Notes under the pieces: model-generated
What the model saw: the letters and a program-made list of their open reading frames with translations, nothing else
Databases searched by the model: none
Told to the model about the DNA's origin: nothing
Origin: a virus
Direction: 5' to 3' (one strand)
Length of the DNA stretch: 29,894 bases
Virus record (IMG/VR): IMGVR_UViG_3300042691_035875
Location: 1 to 29,894 of that record
Position numbers and translations under genes: made by a program
In this document: in pieces, positions 2,872 through 15,749 of the stretch
How the letters are laid out: every line of letters begins with the position of its first letter
How positions within the stretch are numbered: position 1 is the first letter of the stretch

Positions 2872-4404
2872 TCAAACTAGTTCATAAATTAAATTGTCTG
2901 ATGGTATTTTAAAATGGTCCCCTGAAGCGTCTACATTTTTATTATCAAATACATAAACTTTTTTATTGTCGGTGAAAATTAATAAATCGGTTTTATAATC
3001 TTTTACAAATCCTTTTATTTTGATTACGTATTCACCTTCAGATTGTGTTATTGAATAAATGGGTTTAACTTGTCCTGTCTTATCCACACCGTCAATTGTT
3101 AAAATGATATCAACACCTCCACTCATATCTTGCTCACTACCCAATTTACCTACAGTTTTAACATTTTCATCACCTAATTTTTTCTTTAGTAATGTGTTAA
3201 CAAATGATTCATTACTTTCACCTTTATTATGAGTTTTAGTTAAAATATTCATAATATTTGTTAAAGTATTAGATGATGGGAAAATTCTATTTTTGTATTT
3301 TTTTATGTAATTACAAAATCTATAAACCTCATTAATTTGTTCTTTTGGTGTTTTCCCAACTAAAGTTATTTCAGGTTCACCCATTTTTACAACTGCTTTA
3401 TTAATATCATGAAGTAAAATTACAAAACCAATAATGTTTGTATTTAATTTATTTAAAACTGAACGTCCCTTAATTCCATCAATATCATATACACCTGACA
3501 TTTCACCTGGTGCATATTCTCCTTTTTCATAATAGTTTTCACCGTAAACATCAGAAAGTACTGAATCAATACATTTTCTAAAGGTCCACAATAAGTTTTT
3601 GTTGTTACTCAAAATAAACATGTAATTTTGAATCGCCTTACCTATTGGAGTGTATGACTCTTTTTGTTCGTTAATCATAAATGATTCGGTAATTGTTTCT
3701 TCTTTTTTTGTTTTTGATAAAAATAATTCGTTAACAAATTTCCAGTTAATTGCATCCCAAAAATTTTGAATGTATTCGTCTCTTTTGTTTTGATATTTTA
3801 AGTAATAAGCGTGTTCCCATAAATCTAAACCTAAAACAGGGAATCCACCTTTATCAAAAATATTCATTAATGGGTTGTCTTGATTTTGAGTTGACATCAC
3901 CTTTAATCTACCACCTTTAGTTATTACTAACCAAACCCACCCTGAACCAAATCTCTTTTTAGCAACTGATTCAAATCTTTCTTTAAATTCTCTATAACTT
4001 CCAAAATCTTTTTTTATTTTGTCTAAAATTTCTCCTGTTGGTTTTTGAGGTGTTGGTGATAACATTTTCCAAAACAATGCGTGGTTAAATGCTCCACCCG
4101 CATTATTTCTAATGGTTGTGTTATATTTTGAGATTTGTTTAACAATTTTTTCTAACTCAACATCACCATATTCTTTTTTACGTAGAGCTGAGTTTAATTT
4201 ATTAACGTAACCCTTATAATGTTTTTGATAGTGGAATTTCATAGTCTCAGGGTCAATAAATCTTCGTAAAGATGCATACCCGTATGGTAATTTCTCAATA
4301 CCAATTGTTTTCATCTCATTGATAAAAAACTTAGTTTCAGGTAAACTTTTTTCCCCCGTTATTTTTTGTATTAAAGATTCTGATAATAAATTTAACGATT
4401 TCAT
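2872..4404 (-). CDS. Mn-type superoxide dismutase fused to a PD-(D/E)XK nuclease-like domain
   Basis: Residues about 37-230 are a complete Fe/Mn superoxide dismutase, which converts superoxide to peroxide and oxygen. All four metal ligands are visible: His58 (KFHYQKHY), His108 (FNHALFW), Asp194 and His198 (DLWEHAYY). Gly104 together with Gln175 (NQDNPL) is the arrangement typical of Mn-type rather than Fe-type enzymes. Residues about 250-510 are a second region absent from ordinary SODs, which are about 200 aa. It ends in a restriction-endonuclease-like pattern: GGVDIILTIDG with Asp432, then QVK with Gln445 and Lys447, then a strand of type DLLIFTDNKKVYVF. This is weaker evidence than the SOD part. 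The N-terminal 30 residues and the 231-250 linker contain LSE, INE, ITE and INE, which resemble (L/I)-x-E prohead-protease sites. I chose the ATG at 4404 over a TTG one codon earlier. The stop is TGA. A TATTTATT motif lies 4 bases before the ATG. Confidence 0.88.
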   Translation of the reverse strand: MKSLNLLSESLIQKITGEKSLPETKFFINEMKTIGIEKLPYGYASLRRFIDPETMKFHYQKHYKGYVNKLNSALRKKEYGDVELEKIVKQISKYNTTIRNNAGGAFNHALFWKMLSPTPQKPTGEILDKIKKDFGSYREFKERFESVAKKRFGSGWVWLVITKGGRLKVMSTQNQDNPLMNIFDKGGFPVLGLDLWEHAYYLKYQNKRDEYIQNFWDAINWKFVNELFLSKTKKEETITESFMINEQKESYTPIGKAIQNYMFILSNNKNLLWTFRKCIDSVLSDVYGENYYEKGEYAPGEMSGVYDIDGIKGRSVLNKLNTNIIGFVILLHDINKAVVKMGEPEITLVGKTPKEQINEVYRFCNYIKKYKNRIFPSSNTLTNIMNILTKTHNKGESNESFVNTLLKKKLGDENVKTVGKLGSEQDMSGGVDIILTIDGVDKTGQVKPIYSITQSEGEYVIKIKGFVKDYKTDLLIFTDNKKVYVFDNKNVDASGDHFKIPSDNLIYELV

Positions 4405-4408
4405 CAAT

Positions 4409-8067: not shown

Positions 8068-11000
8068 ATGGCAACAGCAAACAAAGTATTCGTTTCTCCG
8101 GGTGTATACACATCCGAGACCGATTTATCATTTGTTTCACAAAGTGTTGGTGTTACAACTTTAGGTATTGTTGGTGAAACTTTAAAAGGTCCTGCTTTTG
8201 AACCTATCTTTATTGGTAGTTATGACGAGTTTCAAACATACTTCGGTGGTACTACACCTGAAAAATTTGTGAATACACAAATTCCTAAATACGAGGCGGC
8301 GTATATCGCAAAGTCTTATTTACAACAATCTAACCAATTGTTTGTTACAAGAATATTAGGTCTTAATGGTTATGATGCAGGTCCATCTTGGTCCATCAAA
8401 ACAATTGCAAACGTTAACCCTGATACTATAGGATTTTCAGGAAGTACAGGACAACCAACAGTATATACTTTACAATTCTCAGGTAATACAGGTGGTACTG
8501 TTAACTATACAAATATTGCGTCATGGACGGCATCACCAATGTATAATGTATTTACGTCAACTTATACAACATTTAACAAGGGTACTTCAACAATCAAAAC
8601 TGATTTAACAACAATGTTGTCAGGTATTTTTACAACACCTGCAAATTCAGCAACAACAATTGATTATTTCGGTTCAATACCTGGAGCTAATTATTCAGCA
8701 TTAAGTTCGTACACAAATAGAACTAACGTATATGGTGTCGAGTCTTTATCAGGGGCAAGTTTAAGTTCTCGTAATAACGATGCTTGGTTCTACTCGGCAT
8801 TTGACCCAACAATGAATGGTGTTCTACAAACAAGTGCATATACAGGATACTCTTTCTATAGTGTAGTTACAAATTTAGTAACAGGTGCTACTGCAGGAAC
8901 TTATACAGGTACTGTTTCAGGTACTTACTATACTTTGACAGGTACATCTTACAGTGATTACACTAACTTAGTTGTTGCAACTTTACGTTCAAGAGGTATT
9001 ACACAATATTCAACAACTTTAGACGGACAACAATACCAAGTAACAGGTACTACCGACGTATCCTTATTAGGTTCAGGAACTGCGTATTCGGCAATTACAA
9101 AGAACCCATATGCAACATTTAAAGTTTCAGGTATTACTGTTGATAGTAGTTCTTTTGAGTTTGAAACTTCATTCTTAACATCTCAGTCAAATTATTTGGC
9201 AAGTGTGTTTGGAACTGAAAACTTTGCAAAAGAAAGAACTGAAGTTCCATTATTCTTAGAGGAAAGATATGATACTTTATTATCTTATGGATATAACAAA
9301 GGTTATGTTAGAGGTATTAATAGTAATATCGTTGGTTTAGGTGACTCAAGAAATTCTTTGAATACTGGTTTTGCAACAACAGGTTTTTATCTACAAAGAT
9401 ATCAAACACCTGAGTCTCCATGGGTTGTTTCTGAATTACGTGGTAACGTTGTTTACAGACTATTCAAATTTACAACAATATCTGATGGTAACGCTGCAAA
9501 CAGACAAGTTAAAGTATCTTTAGCTAACATGTCATTCGTTAACCAAACATTTGACGTAATTGTTAGAGATTTTTACGATACAGATTCTAATCCTGTAGTA
9601 CTTGAGAAGTTCACTAATTGTTCTATGGACCCAAGTCTTAACAATTATGTGGCTAAGAAAATTGGTACTTCAGATGGTGAGTTTGAGATTAAATCAAAAC
9701 TTGTAATGGTTGAAGTTAATTACGAAGCTCCGATAGACGCATTACCTTGTGGTTTTGAAGGTTTTGTTACAAGAGTTTATGGTGTATTATCCAACTCATC
9801 TGCGTTTCCTGTTATTAAGACAAAATATAACACACCTGGTGAAATTATTTACAACCCACCATTTGGTTCACTTGCGGGAGGTGATGATGCATTACCAGCA
9901 GCAGGAGACAACGTAAGAAGAACTTACTTAGGTATTTCAACTTCAATAGGTGTGGATAACGATTTCTATGAATATAAAGGAAAAGTTAGACCTGTAGGTG
10001 ATATCTGTGAAGAAGGTTCTTACGACAACTGGCCAAGATTAACTAGAGGTTTCCACATGGATAGCGGGGCAACTGCAATCACAATCTCATCAGCAGTCTA
10101 TACTGCATCAACAGGTAATCAAGCATTTGATTGTGGTGTGGCGTCATTCTCAAGTGAACCAACTGACACTGAGAATCCATATTACAGATTGTTCGCACGT
10201 AAGTTTACTTTATTAGTTCAGGGCGGATTTGATGGATGGGATATCTATGAAGAAAGACGTACAAATGGTGACACATATGCATTGGGACAATCAGGATTTA
10301 AAGCTGGATTCTGCGCAGGAGTTGACCCATATCCAACATCAACAGGCCAAGGTAACTTTAAGAAAATTGCGGTTGAGGATGGAAGTATTGAATACGGTAA
10401 CTCTGACTATTACGCATACTTAATGGGTATTAGAACATTTGCAAACCCTGAGGTAACTAACATTAACGTGTTTGTAACACCTGGTATTGATTATGTTAAT
10501 AATAGTGGATTGGTTGAGGAAAGTATCAATATGATTGAGAATGAAAGAGCTGACTCAGTTTACATCGTAACTGCACCTGACTTTAATTTGTTACAATCAT
10601 CAACATCTATGGATAACTTAATTTATCCTCAAGAAGCGGTAGATGCGTTAGAAGAGACTGGAATTGACTCTAACTACACAGCAACTTACTACCCTTGGGT
10701 GTTGACTCGTGATACTGTTAACAATACACAAATTTACTTACCAGCAACTGCTGAGGTAACAAGAAACTTAGCATTAACAGATAACATTGCCTTCCCATGG
10801 TTCGCAACTGCGGGTTACACAAGAGGTTTGGTAAATGCCATCAGAGCTCGTAAGAGATTAACTCAAGAAGATAGAGATACTCTTTACAAAGGTAGAATTA
10901 ACCCAATCGCAACTTTCAACGACGTTGGAACTGTAATTTGGGGTAATAAAACACTTCAAGTTAGAGAGTCAGCTCTTGACAGAATTAACGTTAGAAGATT

Positions 11001-11289
11001 GTTATTACAAGCTCGTAAGTTGATTTCAGCGGTGGCTGTAAGATTATTGTTTGAGCAAAACGATAACTTAGTTAGACAACAGTTCTTGAGTCAAGTTAAT
11101 CCTATCTTAGACGCTATTCGTAGAGATAGAGGTTTATACGATTTCCGTGTAACAGTTTCTAATAGTCCTGAGGACTTAGATGCTAATCAATTAGTAGGTA
11201 AGATTTATATCAAACCAACTAAAGCGTTAGAATTTATTGACATTGAATTCTTAATTACTCCAACAGGGGCTTCATTTGAAGATATCTAA
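8068..11289 (+). CDS. 18: Tail sheath protein, T4 gp18-like, enlarged
   Basis: Main contractile component of the tail. The opening VSPGVYTSETDLSF is the usual sheath start (SPGVxxxExD). The C-terminus carries the conserved sheath end: ARKRLTQEDRDTLYKGRINPIATF, then DRINVRRLLLQARKLI, and finally strands ending IEFLITPTGASFEDI, which match T4 gp18 (DRINVRRLF, then NFVATATGADFDE). It is 1073 aa, against about 659 in T4. Most of the extra length appears to lie around residues 120-370, rich in Ser, Thr, Gly and Tyr, which would form outward-facing domains. A strong terminator follows within 20 bases, so it is probably made from its own abundant transcript. Confidence 0.95.
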   Translation: MATANKVFVSPGVYTSETDLSFVSQSVGVTTLGIVGETLKGPAFEPIFIGSYDEFQTYFGGTTPEKFVNTQIPKYEAAYIAKSYLQQSNQLFVTRILGLNGYDAGPSWSIKTIANVNPDTIGFSGSTGQPTVYTLQFSGNTGGTVNYTNIASWTASPMYNVFTSTYTTFNKGTSTIKTDLTTMLSGIFTTPANSATTIDYFGSIPGANYSALSSYTNRTNVYGVESLSGASLSSRNNDAWFYSAFDPTMNGVLQTSAYTGYSFYSVVTNLVTGATAGTYTGTVSGTYYTLTGTSYSDYTNLVVATLRSRGITQYSTTLDGQQYQVTGTTDVSLLGSGTAYSAITKNPYATFKVSGITVDSSSFEFETSFLTSQSNYLASVFGTENFAKERTEVPLFLEERYDTLLSYGYNKGYVRGINSNIVGLGDSRNSLNTGFATTGFYLQRYQTPESPWVVSELRGNVVYRLFKFTTISDGNAANRQVKVSLANMSFVNQTFDVIVRDFYDTDSNPVVLEKFTNCSMDPSLNNYVAKKIGTSDGEFEIKSKLVMVEVNYEAPIDALPCGFEGFVTRVYGVLSNSSAFPVIKTKYNTPGEIIYNPPFGSLAGGDDALPAAGDNVRRTYLGISTSIGVDNDFYEYKGKVRPVGDICEEGSYDNWPRLTRGFHMDSGATAITISSAVYTASTGNQAFDCGVASFSSEPTDTENPYYRLFARKFTLLVQGGFDGWDIYEERRTNGDTYALGQSGFKAGFCAGVDPYPTSTGQGNFKKIAVEDGSIEYGNSDYYAYLMGIRTFANPEVTNINVFVTPGIDYVNNSGLVEESINMIENERADSVYIVTAPDFNLLQSSTSMDNLIYPQEAVDALEETGIDSNYTATYYPWVLTRDTVNNTQIYLPATAEVTRNLALTDNIAFPWFATAGYTRGLVNAIRARKRLTQEDRDTLYKGRINPIATFNDVGTVIWGNKTLQVRESALDRINVRRLLLQARKLISAVAVRLLFEQNDNLVRQQFLSQVNPILDAIRRDRGLYDFRVTVSNSPEDLDANQLVGKIYIKPTKALEFIDIEFLITPTGASFEDI

Positions 11290-11359: not shown

Positions 11360-12175
11360 ATGAAAGTTTATTTAGTTGAAAATTTTAAAGAAGAGATTAC
11401 TCCTGAATTAAAATATTATGCATTTGATTGGGACGATAATATTATGATGATGCCGACTAAAATCATTTTAAAAGACGAAAATGGTGAAGAGGTTGGGATG
11501 TCTACAGAGGATTTTGCAGAATATAGAGTTAATATTGGAGTTAAACCATTTGACTATAAGGGAAAACAGATTGTTGGGTTTGCTGAGGACCCATTTAGAT
11601 ACTTCTCAACTAAAGGTGATAAGAGATTTATAGTTGATTCAATGTTAGCTGAACCAGGTCCAGCATGGGGAGACTTTGTGGAAGCGATTAATGGAGGTTC
11701 AATATTCTCTATAGTAACTGCAAGAGGACACTCTCCACTTGTTATTAGGAGAGCAATTGAAAATATGATTAATACAAACTTCAAAGGGATTTCCAAAAAA
11801 GAATTGGTTAAAAACCTTAGAAAGTTTAGAGATATTGCTGGTGAAGAGGATATGTCAGACAGTGAATTAATTGAGACATATATGGATATGAATAAGTACT
11901 ATCCTGTAACATTCGGAGCCGGTTCAGCACAAAGTCCTGAAAAAGGAAAGGTTGAGGCTTTAAAAGAGTTTCAACAATACGTAAAATATTTGGCAAAACA
12001 ATTACAAAAACCTGGAATGTTTAAAAATGACATTTCTAACCGTTTTATACCACAAATAGGATTTTCAGATGACGATTTAAGAAATTTAGAGAAAGTTAAA
12101 ACAGAATTAGGAAAAGACCCAGAAAATATTATTAAAACAATTTCAACTCATGGAGGAGTTAAGAAAGATTATTAA
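11360..12175 (+). CDS. HAD-superfamily phosphatase-like protein inside the tail gene cluster
   Basis: All four HAD motifs can be seen. Motif I is FDWDDN (nucleophile Asp23, acid/base Asp25), motif II is SIVTARG (Thr120), motif III has Lys residues in SPEKGKVEAL (195-197), and motif IV is GFSDDD (237-239). An Mg-dependent phosphohydrolase acting on a small phosphate ester, a nucleic acid end or a phosphoprotein is therefore likely; the substrate cannot be read from the sequence. An insertion of about 65 residues between motifs II and III is mostly helical. It sits between the sheath and tube genes, where T4 has none, and has a terminator and two TATTTAT motifs in front, so it is probably expressed late with the structural genes. 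The N-terminus (MKVYLVENFKEE) precedes motif I by only about 20 residues. There is no signal peptide. Confidence 0.85.
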   Translation: MKVYLVENFKEEITPELKYYAFDWDDNIMMMPTKIILKDENGEEVGMSTEDFAEYRVNIGVKPFDYKGKQIVGFAEDPFRYFSTKGDKRFIVDSMLAEPGPAWGDFVEAINGGSIFSIVTARGHSPLVIRRAIENMINTNFKGISKKELVKNLRKFRDIAGEEDMSDSELIETYMDMNKYYPVTFGAGSAQSPEKGKVEALKEFQQYVKYLAKQLQKPGMFKNDISNRFIPQIGFSDDDLRNLEKVKTELGKDPENIIKTISTHGGVKKDY

Positions 12176-12285: not shown

Positions 12286-12774
12286 ATGGCTGATTTATTA
12301 ATGAAAATGCCGATACCTTATGAGCCCAAAAGAAAAAACAGGTTCATTTTAAGATTCCCTTCAGAATTAGGTATCAACGAATGGTTTGTTGAATCTACAA
12401 GTAGACCAAAAATTACAATCGGTTCAACTGCAATACCGTTCTTAAATACTGAAAAGTATGTTGCTGGTAAGTATACATGGGGAACAATAAGTGTTACTTT
12501 CCGTGACCCAATTGGACCTTCTGCCGCTCAAGCATTGATGGAATGGGTTCGTTTACACGCTGAGTCTGTAACAGGACGTATGGGATATGCTGCGGGTTAT
12601 AAAAAGACTATTGAGTTAGACATGTTAGACCCAACAGGTGTTGTTATTGAAAAATGGCAATTAGTTGACACTTTCTTAACGGATGTTGATTTTGGTTCTT
12701 TAGGTTATGGTGAAGATGGATTGGCTAATATTACAGTTACACTTCGTCCTGATTATTGTGTATTGTTATACTAA
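12286..12774 (+). CDS. 19: Tail tube protein, T4 gp19-like
   Basis: Forms the inner tail tube through which DNA passes. At 162 aa it matches T4 gp19 (163 aa). The family pattern is clear: N-terminal PYEPKRKNRFILRFPSEL, a central strand WGTISVTFRDPI, and a C-terminal DVDFGSLGYGEDGLANITVTLRPDYCVL. The aromatic and Gly spacing is that of T4-type and type VI tube proteins. It has its own TATTTATA motif upstream and a strong terminator 23 bases downstream, consistent with a high-copy monocistronic transcript. No unusual features. Confidence 0.95.
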   Translation: MADLLMKMPIPYEPKRKNRFILRFPSELGINEWFVESTSRPKITIGSTAIPFLNTEKYVAGKYTWGTISVTFRDPIGPSAAQALMEWVRLHAESVTGRMGYAAGYKKTIELDMLDPTGVVIEKWQLVDTFLTDVDFGSLGYGEDGLANITVTLRPDYCVLLY

Positions 12775-12874: not shown

Positions 12875-13627
12875 ATGGACGAAAGAATTGCCGGACAAGA
12901 AAATTTTAATTTACCTCATGACGTGGTTCAGTTACCAAGTCAAGGTATTTTCTATAAAAACAAAAAAAAATCAGTTAAAGTTGGTTATTTAACTGCTGCA
13001 GATGAAAATGTTATTGCAAGTGCATCTAATATTGGGGCGACTGAGATGATTAAAAATCTTATTCGTTCAAAAATGTATGAACCTGACATAAAAATTGATG
13101 ATATGTTAGAAGGTGATATGCAGGCAATCTTAGTCTTTTTAAGAAACACATCATTTGGTACTGAATATGAACTATCTTTAGTTGACCCTAAGTCTAATAA
13201 AGAGTTTAATACTACGATTAATTTAGAAGAGTTAAATTTTGTAAAATTAGAGGTTGAACCTAATTCCGATGGTCTTTTTGAAACCGTGTTACCGAAAACA
13301 AATTCTAAAGTTAAACTTAAATTATTAACTTACGGTGAAATCATGGAACTCCAAAAAATGGAAGATGAATATCCTAGAGGTATGGTTGCCCCTAAAGTAA
13401 CGTGGAGATTAATGAAACAGATTGTTGAAATTGACGGTCAAAACTCCAAAGAAGAAATTTCAAAATTTATAAATAAAATGCCAATCGCTGACTCTAAATA
13501 TATTTCTAATTTTATATCTAAAAATGAGCCAGGTCTTGATTTAAGAAAAGAAATTATCGCCCCGTCCGGAGAAAGAGTATTCGTTAGAATATCTTTTGGG
13601 GTGGAGTTTTTTCGCCCTTTCTTCTAA
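12875..13627 (+). CDS. Tail assembly chaperone / T4 gp26-type baseplate-family protein, zero-frame product
   Basis: The protein has the pattern of the T4-type baseplate family (gp26-like): VVQLPSQGIFY near the N-terminus, then GYLTAADENVIASASNIGATEMIKNLI, then DDMLEGDMQAILVFLRNTSFGTEYEL. These proteins are cytoplasmic assembly factors or minor baseplate components. Its position between the tube and tape measure genes is that of the G/GT tail chaperones of other phages. I chose the ATG at 12875 (MDERIAG, 250 aa) over an in-frame TTG nine codons earlier. Translation ends soon after TTTTTTC, whereas the family usually continues with a C-terminal helical part. That part lies in the +1 frame directly downstream (13614-13769), so a frameshifted product of about 297 aa is likely. 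Confidence 0.78.
   Translation: MDERIAGQENFNLPHDVVQLPSQGIFYKNKKKSVKVGYLTAADENVIASASNIGATEMIKNLIRSKMYEPDIKIDDMLEGDMQAILVFLRNTSFGTEYELSLVDPKSNKEFNTTINLEELNFVKLEVEPNSDGLFETVLPKTNSKVKLKLLTYGEIMELQKMEDEYPRGMVAPKVTWRLMKQIVEIDGQNSKEEISKFINKMPIADSKYISNFISKNEPGLDLRKEIIAPSGERVFVRISFGVEFFRPFF
13607..13613 (+). other. Candidate +1 frameshift site TTTTTTC
   Basis: Zero-frame codons are GAG TTT TTT CGC. The tRNA on the second TTT could slip one base onto TTC while CGC waits, giving GCC CTT TCT and onwards. The zero frame stops at 13625. The +1 frame is open from about 13545 to 13766, so the shift must occur in this overlap. A one-base homopolymer error (five T in the true sequence) would produce the same fused frame and cannot be excluded. 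Confidence 0.5.
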
Positions 13628-13769
13628 TCACGCAACAATTTTAATGGATGATTACTATACTATGGCCCATTTTTTAGGGACATCATATAGTGATTTTATG
13701 GTAATACCAACGTTCCAAAGAAAATACCTTTTAAATAAAATTGTAGAATTTAACACTCCAAAAACGTAA
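13614..13769 (+). CDS. Frameshifted C-terminal extension of the tail chaperone
   Basis: Read in the +1 frame this gives ALSSNHATILMDDYYTMAHF, then GTSYSDFMVIPTFQRKYLLNKIVEF, ending at TAA 13767-13769 (51 codons). The sequence looks like the helical C-terminal part of tail chaperone proteins (a helix, then Met-x-x-x-P-hydrophobic-x-x-R-x-hydrophobic-hydrophobic). It has no start of its own except an ATG at 13644, which would give a 41-aa protein with no late motif or ribosome-binding sequence in front. I favour expression as an extension of the upstream gene. Confidence 0.55.
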   Translation, partial: ALSSNHATILMDDYYTMAHFLGTSYSDFMVIPTFQRKYLLNKIVEFNTPKT

Positions 13770-13787: not shown

Positions 13788-15749
13788 ATGGCTGGAGAAG
13801 GAATTAAAAAAGTATTAGGTGTGGGTAAAGATGTGATAAAAACTCTTGACCCTACACAGGAAGGTCTGACCGATTTAGATAAAATTTTAAAAAGTATGAT
13901 TCCAACAGCTGGTGCATCCGCATTAGCTTCAGGACTAAATGACTCTTTAAAATTTGTCATAGAGATGGACCAAACTTTTGCAAAATTAGCACAAAAGATG
14001 GGTGTTGGAGAACAAATGTCTTCTTTGATGAAAGAAAACTTTGCAAAGACTACTGAGGAAATAATTTTGATGGGAGGTAAATTTGAAGATGCGGTTAAAA
14101 TACAGGAAGATTATTTAAATGTTACAAATAGAGCCGCGTTATTAAATGCGGATATTGCAAAATCACTATATGCGACTTCTAAAGTTACGGGACAAGCTGC
14201 AGATGCATTAGTAACAGGTTTCTTAGATGCGGGATATGAGGCTGATAACATTGCTGAAAATATGTTACGAGTCCAAAAAACCGCAAATTCTATGGGGATT
14301 AGTTCTCAGGCGGTATCTTCAATGGTATTGTCAAACTTAGATAAATTAAATAAATTTACTTTTAAAGATGGTGTTGATGGATTGGCTAAAATGGCTGCTA
14401 AAGCAGCAATGTTTAGAATTGACATGTCTGAAACATTTAGTTTGGCGGATAAGTTATTAAGTCCTGAAAATGCAATTGAAGTTGCATCCGCATTACAAAG
14501 ATTAGGTGGCGCAACAAGTCAATTGGCTAGTCCATTAAGATTAATGGATTTGGCTCAAAATAATGTACCCGAATTACAAAATCAACTTGGAAAACTTGTT
14601 GAAAAATATACTTTCTTTAACGAAGAAACTAAGTCATTTCAAATTATGCCAGGCGCAAGAAGAGAATTGAAAGCGGTAAGTGATAGTTTAGGGGTTAGTG
14701 TTGAGACTCTAACTAAGATGGGTATTGAAGGTGCAAAACTAAAAAAGAAAATGTCTGAAATTAGTTTTGATGGGCTTGATTTTAATAAAGAACAACAAGA
14801 ACAAATTACTAATTTGGCAAATTTAAAAGGTGGTAAATATCAAATTGAATTTAAAGATAAGGATGGTACGACTATAACAAAAACATTAGAAGAATTAAAA
14901 AATTTAACTGATGAGCAGGAAGTAAGTTTAAAGGAATATTTACAAAAACAAACTGAAACGGTAAGTGATGACCCCCAAAAACAGATGGTTGATTTGGCTA
15001 AAGAACAATTAGGTAGAGCTGACACTATGATTGCTAAATTATCTGCATTACAAATGGCGCCTCAGTTGGCGGTTGCTGGTGGTAAAGGAGGTGAGGATTT
15101 ACTACAAAAATCATTTGAAATTAATCAAAAACAATTAGAGTCATTTTTGTCGGCAAATAAATTTGATAATTTGTCAAAAACAATTACCCCTGTTACGGAT
15201 TCTTTGATTAAAATTTCTGAATTAATGAGTGATGGGGAATTTAAAAAGGCCGCTGAGGAGTTTAAAAATTTACCTGGAGAATTTGGTAAAGTTATTGGAG
15301 CACAAATTGCAACACCATTAATGGAGACATTAATGAAAAATCTACCTGAAACTCTTAAACAAACTATTACTGATTTTTTTGGTAATGCTGGGGAGGCTGA
15401 GGACTTTATTTGGAGACCTGGTGGTAAAATTCAAAAATTCAAACAAGACGATTTAATAATTGGAGGAACTAACTTAGTTAATCAAAAGGTTAATAAACCA
15501 GTTATTACTGAACCTGAAAATAAAAATATCATTCAGAATAATAACACTACCTTAACTAATAAAACCGAATCAACTGTTGGTGGTGAGATTACTCTAAAAG
15601 TTGTTGTTGATTCATCTACAAGTAAAAATATTACAATAAGTGAAGCAAATATTATTGGAGAGAGAGTTGCTGCGGCACTTAAAAGTAGACCCGACCTCCA
15701 AGATGAGTTTAAGAAAGCCTTGAACTTTACATCTAATGATAAGAAGTAA
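13788..15749 (+). CDS. Tail tape measure protein
   Basis: Determines tail length and occupies the tube lumen before DNA ejection. The 653-aa sequence is largely helical and repetitive in Ala, Leu, Lys and Glu. It contains AADALVTGFLDAGYEADNIAENML and LQRLGGATSQLASPLRLMDLAQNN, the latter a pattern common in phage tape measure proteins. A hydrophobic small-residue segment (MIPTAGASALASGL) lies near residue 35. An Asn/Thr-rich linker near residues 575-600 precedes a short C-terminal domain. The length is comparable with T4 gp29 (about 590 aa), which suggests a tail of roughly T4 length. Its place directly after the tail chaperone matches the conserved order chaperone, tape measure, baseplate. 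Confidence 0.85.
   Translation: MAGEGIKKVLGVGKDVIKTLDPTQEGLTDLDKILKSMIPTAGASALASGLNDSLKFVIEMDQTFAKLAQKMGVGEQMSSLMKENFAKTTEEIILMGGKFEDAVKIQEDYLNVTNRAALLNADIAKSLYATSKVTGQAADALVTGFLDAGYEADNIAENMLRVQKTANSMGISSQAVSSMVLSNLDKLNKFTFKDGVDGLAKMAAKAAMFRIDMSETFSLADKLLSPENAIEVASALQRLGGATSQLASPLRLMDLAQNNVPELQNQLGKLVEKYTFFNEETKSFQIMPGARRELKAVSDSLGVSVETLTKMGIEGAKLKKKMSEISFDGLDFNKEQQEQITNLANLKGGKYQIEFKDKDGTTITKTLEELKNLTDEQEVSLKEYLQKQTETVSDDPQKQMVDLAKEQLGRADTMIAKLSALQMAPQLAVAGGKGGEDLLQKSFEINQKQLESFLSANKFDNLSKTITPVTDSLIKISELMSDGEFKKAAEEFKNLPGEFGKVIGAQIATPLMETLMKNLPETLKQTITDFFGNAGEAEDFIWRPGGKIQKFKQDDLIIGGTNLVNQKVNKPVITEPENKNIIQNNNTTLTNKTESTVGGEITLKVVVDSSTSKNITISEANIIGERVAAALKSRPDLQDEFKKALNFTSNDKK

Follow-up and report, generated by a model that had tools for sequence, protein, structure and literature searches.

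We conclude that positions 12,875 to 13,769 of this stretch very likely (probability ∼0.87) hold a T4-family tail assembly chaperone gene with a programmed +1 frameshift that gives rise to two products. This conclusion is inferred from comparative sequence evidence; frameshifting was not measured. The source record is an IMG/VR contig, and all 29,894 bases of it were analyzed (referred to here as the window). The general kind of system is known, while the class of slip site, the T4-like setting and the reading of gp26 and gp51 given below appear to be new, as far as the searchable literature shows. The parts of the gene are the following.

12875..13627, + strand: short form of the tail assembly chaperone, zero frame (T4 gp26-type, PF12322), 250 amino acids; supported by PF12322, phrog_150 and a predicted fold (pLDDT 88.5).
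13598..13600, + strand: GGG codon, nine bases 5' of the first TTT; possible stimulatory element, role unknown; GGG in 55 of 56 distinct homologues.
13607..13613, + strand: slip site TTT TTT C, with an inferred +1 move of the P-site tRNA-Phe from UUU onto UUC; present in 79/79 homologues, with no five-T relatives.
13613..13615, + strand: CGC, the zero-frame A-site codon at the shift; inferred hungry-codon stimulator, based on codon rarity.
13614..13769, + strand: +1-frame extension of 51 codons plus TAA, giving the long form (297 amino acids); supported by purifying selection, a predicted three-helix domain (pLDDT 92) and profile matches to the extensions of other phages.

The zero frame runs from an ATG at 12875 to a TAA at 13625-13627, and its product ends in VEFFRPFF. 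Close to this end, six T residues (13607-13612) are followed by an in-frame CGC (13613-13615), so that TTT TTT CGC occupies 13607-13615. The +1 frame is open from 13545 to 13766 and closes with a TAA at 13767-13769; when the frames are joined at TTT_C, 51 residues are added (ALSSNHATILMDD...NTPKT), for a total of 297 amino acids. The -1 frame is closed in the window; the layout is +1, so there is no canonical -1 heptamer. A first-pass annotation of the window, made from the sequence alone, had claimed that the zero frame stops at 13627 soon after TTTTTTC and that the +1 frame is open here for 51 further residues. Both claims held, with six T and then C found at 13607-13613 and the extension under purifying selection. 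The claim can be refined in that the gene belongs to the T4 gp26/gp51 family: its zero-frame product scores 46 bits against PF12322 (T4_baseplate), passing the gathering cutoff of 24.5, and matches phrog_150 (baseplate hub) at 3e-17.

A scan of IMG/VR yielded 80 relatives with 55-83% identity, two of which are truncated, one ahead of the site and the other immediately past it. The remaining 78 relatives and the window form an intact set of 79 rows, 56 of which are distinct. In all 79 intact homologues, TTTTTTCGN is found in the same frame and is accompanied by a +1 extension of 50-54 codons, and the slip site TTTTTTCG is likewise present in 79/79. The homologue comparison that the first-pass annotation had proposed thus shows a conserved slip site and a conserved two-frame layout. 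That annotation had also named a five-T version, which would make one continuous gene, as the observation that would refute its reading. Such a site is absent from all gp26 homologues, as judged from viral contigs without raw reads: a search of 2.9 million viral contigs returned six IMG/VR pattern matches, all in unrelated sequence and none in gp26, while the six-T site occurs in at least 120 IMG/VR contigs.

Selection acts on both products. The zero-frame end is FFRPFF or a near variant in all 79 rows. In the extension, the median dN/dS is ∼0.09 (457 pairs among the 56 distinct homologues), and mismatches by +1 codon position (3883/1815/7886) fall mostly in the third position. The other two frames over the extension are closed in 55/56 and 56/56 homologues, and only 0.95% of shuffled extensions stay open. 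These pairs are not independent, given the relatedness of the sequences; the effect is nonetheless large, and the open +1 extension is far beyond chance.

At the site itself, the zero-frame codons TTT, TTT, CCT and TTC are invariant in 56/56 rows, compared with a gene-wide mean synonymous mismatch of 0.81 of that expected. The frozen synonymous sites near the slip are explained in part by dual coding, since RPFF is read in one frame and LSS in the other, but dual coding leaves the first TTT and the GGG codon at 13598-13600 unaccounted for. The synonymous site of this GGG is frozen (mismatch 0.06 of expected), even though the protein requires only a glycine there.

The conserved site places UUU_C in the P-site and a CGN codon in the A-site in 122/122 distinct loci. 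With one occurrence each among 9,620 codons, CGC and CGG are used least in the window, and the single CGC is the one at the slip. This rarity fits a slow A-site, as judged by codon frequency only. Among the relatives, CGC and CGG are used at 0.30 and 0.46 per 1000 codons, yet they make up 81 of the 122 slip A-sites. Codon rarity is not a strict rule, because the moderately used CGT fills the A-site in 40/122 relatives, and the CGN at the slip is also constrained by the overlapping +1 codon. The proposal of the first-pass annotation that a CGC next to TTT_C makes a sound +1 slip site is thereby supported, and refined by the finding that this codon is among the window's two rarest.

In the relatives' genes, UUU_CGN is avoided outside the slip site (14 observed versus 71.9 expected), while the synonymous UUC_CGN is found 123 times versus 30.7 expected. 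This is the pattern expected if UUU_CGN is prone to +1 slippage. Context bias contributes to it, because UUU is likewise underrepresented ahead of every type of C codon (0.37-0.63), and GAT_CGN counts are low as well; the counts, moreover, are not independent, as they include orthologous genes across contigs. The avoidance of GAT_CGN, equally strong at 0.20 of expected in the genes of relatives L001-L081 and L215-L294, has no known reason.

No consensus structure was detected in a search for a downstream RNA stimulator (RNAalifold 0.0). Mean folding z scores, calculated against mononucleotide shuffles only, were -0.2 to -1.4 downstream and -2.0 upstream. In the window, a hairpin folds across the slip site itself, and all its bases are invariant, so that no covariation test is possible. 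Sites of +1 frameshifting frequently lack a downstream RNA structure.

The ribosomal shift itself, its +1 direction, its efficiency and the chaperone roles of the two products are inferred. In the proposed mechanism, the majority of ribosomes would stay in the zero frame and stop at 13627, producing the 250-amino-acid gp26-type short form. On the remaining ribosomes, the single tRNA-Phe would re-pair from UUU to the better-matched UUC, moving the ribosome into the +1 frame, where it would read to 13766 and produce the 297-amino-acid long form with an extra small helical domain. By analogy with lambda gpG/gpGT, numerous short forms may coat the tape measure protein, while few long forms may recruit the tube protein.

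The genes surrounding the chaperone gene are arranged as follows.

8068..11289, + strand: tail sheath protein, long, 1073 amino acids (phrog_23, 2e-54).
12286..12774, + strand: tail tube protein (gp19-type; phrog_4542 tail tube, 6e-28), upstream of the chaperone gene.
13788..15749, + strand: probable tail tape measure protein, 653 amino acids, assigned by position and without a family match of its own.

The counterpart of the last gene is annotated as tape measure in the phages immuto, SP-15 and LIS04, which share this gene order. The order tube, chaperone, tape measure is that of G/GT-type genes, the tube being identified by profile and the tape measure by the relatives' annotation. The first-pass claim of a +1 slip at TTT_C in a tail chaperone between tube and tape measure genes is thus supported by comparative evidence.

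The two-part layout extends well beyond the close relatives. A +1 layout is also found in Flavobacterium phage immuto, Microcystis phage Mel-JY01, Rhodothermus phage RM378, Bacillus phage SP-15 and Listeria phage LIS04. A -1 layout at TTTTTTC or close variants, with the slip site T_TTT_TTC, is found in cyanophages Bellamy, P-SSM2 and S-SM2, in KVP40, Atu_ph07, Ah1 and Cronobacter S13, and further in Mendera, Cr30, Melnitz-2, a Rhizobium phage and Vibrio D510. In 80/80 cyanophage-like IMG/VR loci the zero frame ends in TTTTTTC-NNN-stop, followed, where the contig is long enough, by a -1 extension of 54-61 codons. Like the window gene, the cyanophage/KVP40 gp26 plus short "gp51" is a two-part gene at TTTTTTC with the same kind of extension; unlike it, the layout is -1 (T_TTT_TTC GNN TAR) and annotated as two genes, and in cyanophages an ATG lies close to the stop. 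In cyanophages and KVP40, the annotation treats the extension as a short "gp51"; in Aeromonas phage Ah1 and Cronobacter S13 it is unannotated. Frameshifting is favored in Ah1 and S13, because no early ATG is present there, whereas re-initiation is also possible in cyanophages, because an ATG follows the stop.

The extensions of these groups are related to different degrees. In profile comparisons, the window extension matched that of the Mel/immuto group with 96% probability, that of the SP-15 group with 91% and that of the -1 group with 49%, and the SP-15 group matched the -1 group with 87%; reversed and column-shuffled controls remained below 5%. As separate observations, the "gp51" genes of cyanophages and KVP40 probably represent -1 extensions of gp26, as do the stretches without annotation in Ah1 and S13 (L093, L095, L096, L097, L199, L201), and two loci, L188 and L194, carry the extension as an independent gene that has an ATG of its own and lies in another frame, which makes a third route to the two parts.

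In T4 itself, genes 26 and 51, which encode hub assembly chaperones, are separate and divergently oriented, unlike the window gene, and have no frameshift layout; no extension was found in the other frames of gene 26. PF12322 spans the short-form region in both proteins, matching gp26 (208 amino acids) over 1-206 and gp51 (249 amino acids) over 1-201 (4e-52). The C terminus of T4 gp51 matches the -1 extensions of cyanophages and KVP40 (hhalign probability 97%; controls at most 1%), whereas a direct profile match between the window's +1 extension and T4 gp51 was not significant (2%), so that the two are related only through intermediate families. A tree built from the short-form domain separates +1 from -1 members into two sides, with the exception of Atu_ph07, which has a long branch. 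Within the -1 side, the gp26 and gp51 proteins of T4, RB43 and Aeromonas 31 form one group (93/84, not starred). Profiles and tree suggest that T4 gp26 corresponds to the short form and gp51 to the same domain plus the extension domain. Given the grouping within the -1 side, the simplest account is that a frameshifting gene was duplicated in T4, with one copy then fixed as the short form and the other as the long. A bolder reading, which we regard as probable, is that chaperone frameshifting is ancestral to T4-like phages, with a +1 branch (UUU_CGN and related sites), a -1 branch (U_UUU_UUC) and a T4 lineage that replaced it by duplication into a short gp26 and an essential long gp51. As a further refinement of the first-pass annotation, the two-part layout recurs across T4-like phages: one large group has it as +1 and the other as -1, and T4 itself divides it between two genes. 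That annotation was right that T4 is not known to use a frameshift, since tail-chaperone frameshifting is described as conserved in long-tailed phages "except T4" (PMC5009743).

According to earlier work, T4 gp51 is a hub-assembly protein that is essential, has no known function and does not occur in the particle (PMC3004832); it was also noted that the gp51 of cyanophages and vibriophages is without its first ∼200 residues and that gp51 is missing in Aeh1 (PMC3037559). None of these three papers (PMC5009743, PMC3004832, PMC3037559) mentions gp26 frameshifting, and we found no report of gp26-type frameshifting, or of T4 gp26/gp51 as a G/GT pair, in the open-licence literature searched. Reading gp26 as the short chaperone form and gp51 as the long one, which relatives produce by frameshifting and T4 from two genes, provides a joint explanation that covers both the cyanophage "gp51" without its first ∼200 residues and the seemingly missing gp51 of Aeh1. 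On this view T4, named as the exception to such frameshifting, may have come to encode each of the two forms in a gene of its own. In thousands of phage records, the two parts are annotated as unlinked or the extension is left out.

We folded the zero-frame product and the extension separately. The short form was predicted with a pLDDT of 88.5 and a pTM of 0.83, and its best viral structural matches are baseplate-hub/gp26 proteins; the extension alone was predicted to form three helices (pLDDT 92). A fold search of the PDB with the short form gave nothing significant, the HK97 gp13 chaperone (2OB9) being a weak match (Foldseek probability 0.75, E value 0.54; VIA Z 5.3, rank 2, 86 residues). 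The window gene resembles lambda gpG/gpGT in layout, as a single gene between tube and tape measure genes with a short form and a long form that gains a C-terminal domain via a frameshift near the 3' end. It differs in that the shift is +1 at UUU_CGN rather than -1 and that the family, PF12322, has no detectable sequence relation to the lambda type, with only the weak fold similarity to HK97 gp13.

The closest parallel for the slip site is influenza A PA-X (UCC_UUU_CGU, +1), whose shift at UUU_CGU has been proven by mass spectrometry (PMC3498833). Both have UUU_CGN with P-site UUU moving to UUC (inferred in the window), CGN in the A-site and a conserved E-site codon; unlike in PA-X, the E-site codon of the window family is an invariant UUU rather than UCC, and PA-X has a eukaryotic host and an unrelated protein. 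The UUU_CGN class of +1 sites, known from eukaryotic viruses, would thereby extend to bacteriophages, with its avoidance in other genes as independent support. Shifts of +1 are known in other tail chaperones (PMC5009743, PMC10274946), including HSTV-2 and 350 forward cases in the PRFect training data, although these come from other phage lineages that are not T4-like.

Among the alternatives, a -2 ribosomal shift on the six U residues (UUU back to UUU) would reach the same frame with one extra Phe (...FFFALSSN). In its favor, all six T residues are kept, even the first TTT, although this codon is not a strict requirement for a +1 slip of a single tRNA, and the LIS04 site (TTT TTT AGT) offers poor +1 re-pairing at the second TTT. 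However, the same layout occurs without a T run, at TTC TTT CGT (Streptococcus phage GXN1), CTG TTT CGC (Streptomyces phage pSt2308), TTT CTA TTC (LR756508) and TTC TTT TGG (L179-L193), and in relatives of this kind -2 re-pairing fails while +1 works. The conserved rare CGN in the A-site also indicates a +1 hungry-codon slip, and an E-site effect (PMC3498833) can account for the first TTT. We therefore consider the -2 shift very unlikely.

Transcriptional slippage, in which RNA polymerase slips on T6 and some mRNAs lose one U to give one continuous gene, is supported by the invariance of the T6 run in the close family. Six T residues are, however, a short run for efficient slippage. The layout persists in relatives without a T run, and slippage leaves both the CGN conservation and the UUU_CGN avoidance unexplained, making this alternative highly improbable.

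Nor does it seem at all likely that re-initiation past the zero-frame stop translates the extension as a small gene of its own. In IMG/VR contigs L188 and L194 the extension domain does lie in another frame and is preceded by an ATG of its own, and in the cyanophage versions an ATG comes right after the stop. In the window family, however, the extension has no conserved start codon, an ATG occurring within its first 15 codons in only 7/56 distinct homologues; moreover, selection begins at the slip codon and the overlap codons are frozen.

A sequencing or assembly error in the homopolymer that splits one gene, conceivable for a six-T run in a metagenomic contig without reads, is all but ruled out and was rejected, since the same six T residues occur in 79 homologues and at least 120 contigs with five T in no gp26 homologue, and the zero-frame RPFF residues past the slip are conserved as protein. 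The preferred reading remains a programmed +1 shift at UUU_CGN.

Some further features of the window lie outside the chaperone gene. The family matches of the sheath protein (8068-11289) are restricted to its C-terminal third, implying a large N-terminal or inserted region. Between the sheath and tube genes, a gene at 11360-12175 (+ strand, 271 amino acids) has no Pfam or PHROG match above chance. On the minus strand, the gene at 2872-4407 encodes a 510-amino-acid protein. Its N-terminal ∼230 residues form an Fe/Mn superoxide dismutase, matching both Pfam domains (1.6e-40 and 4e-22), and the ∼280 residues behind them match no family.
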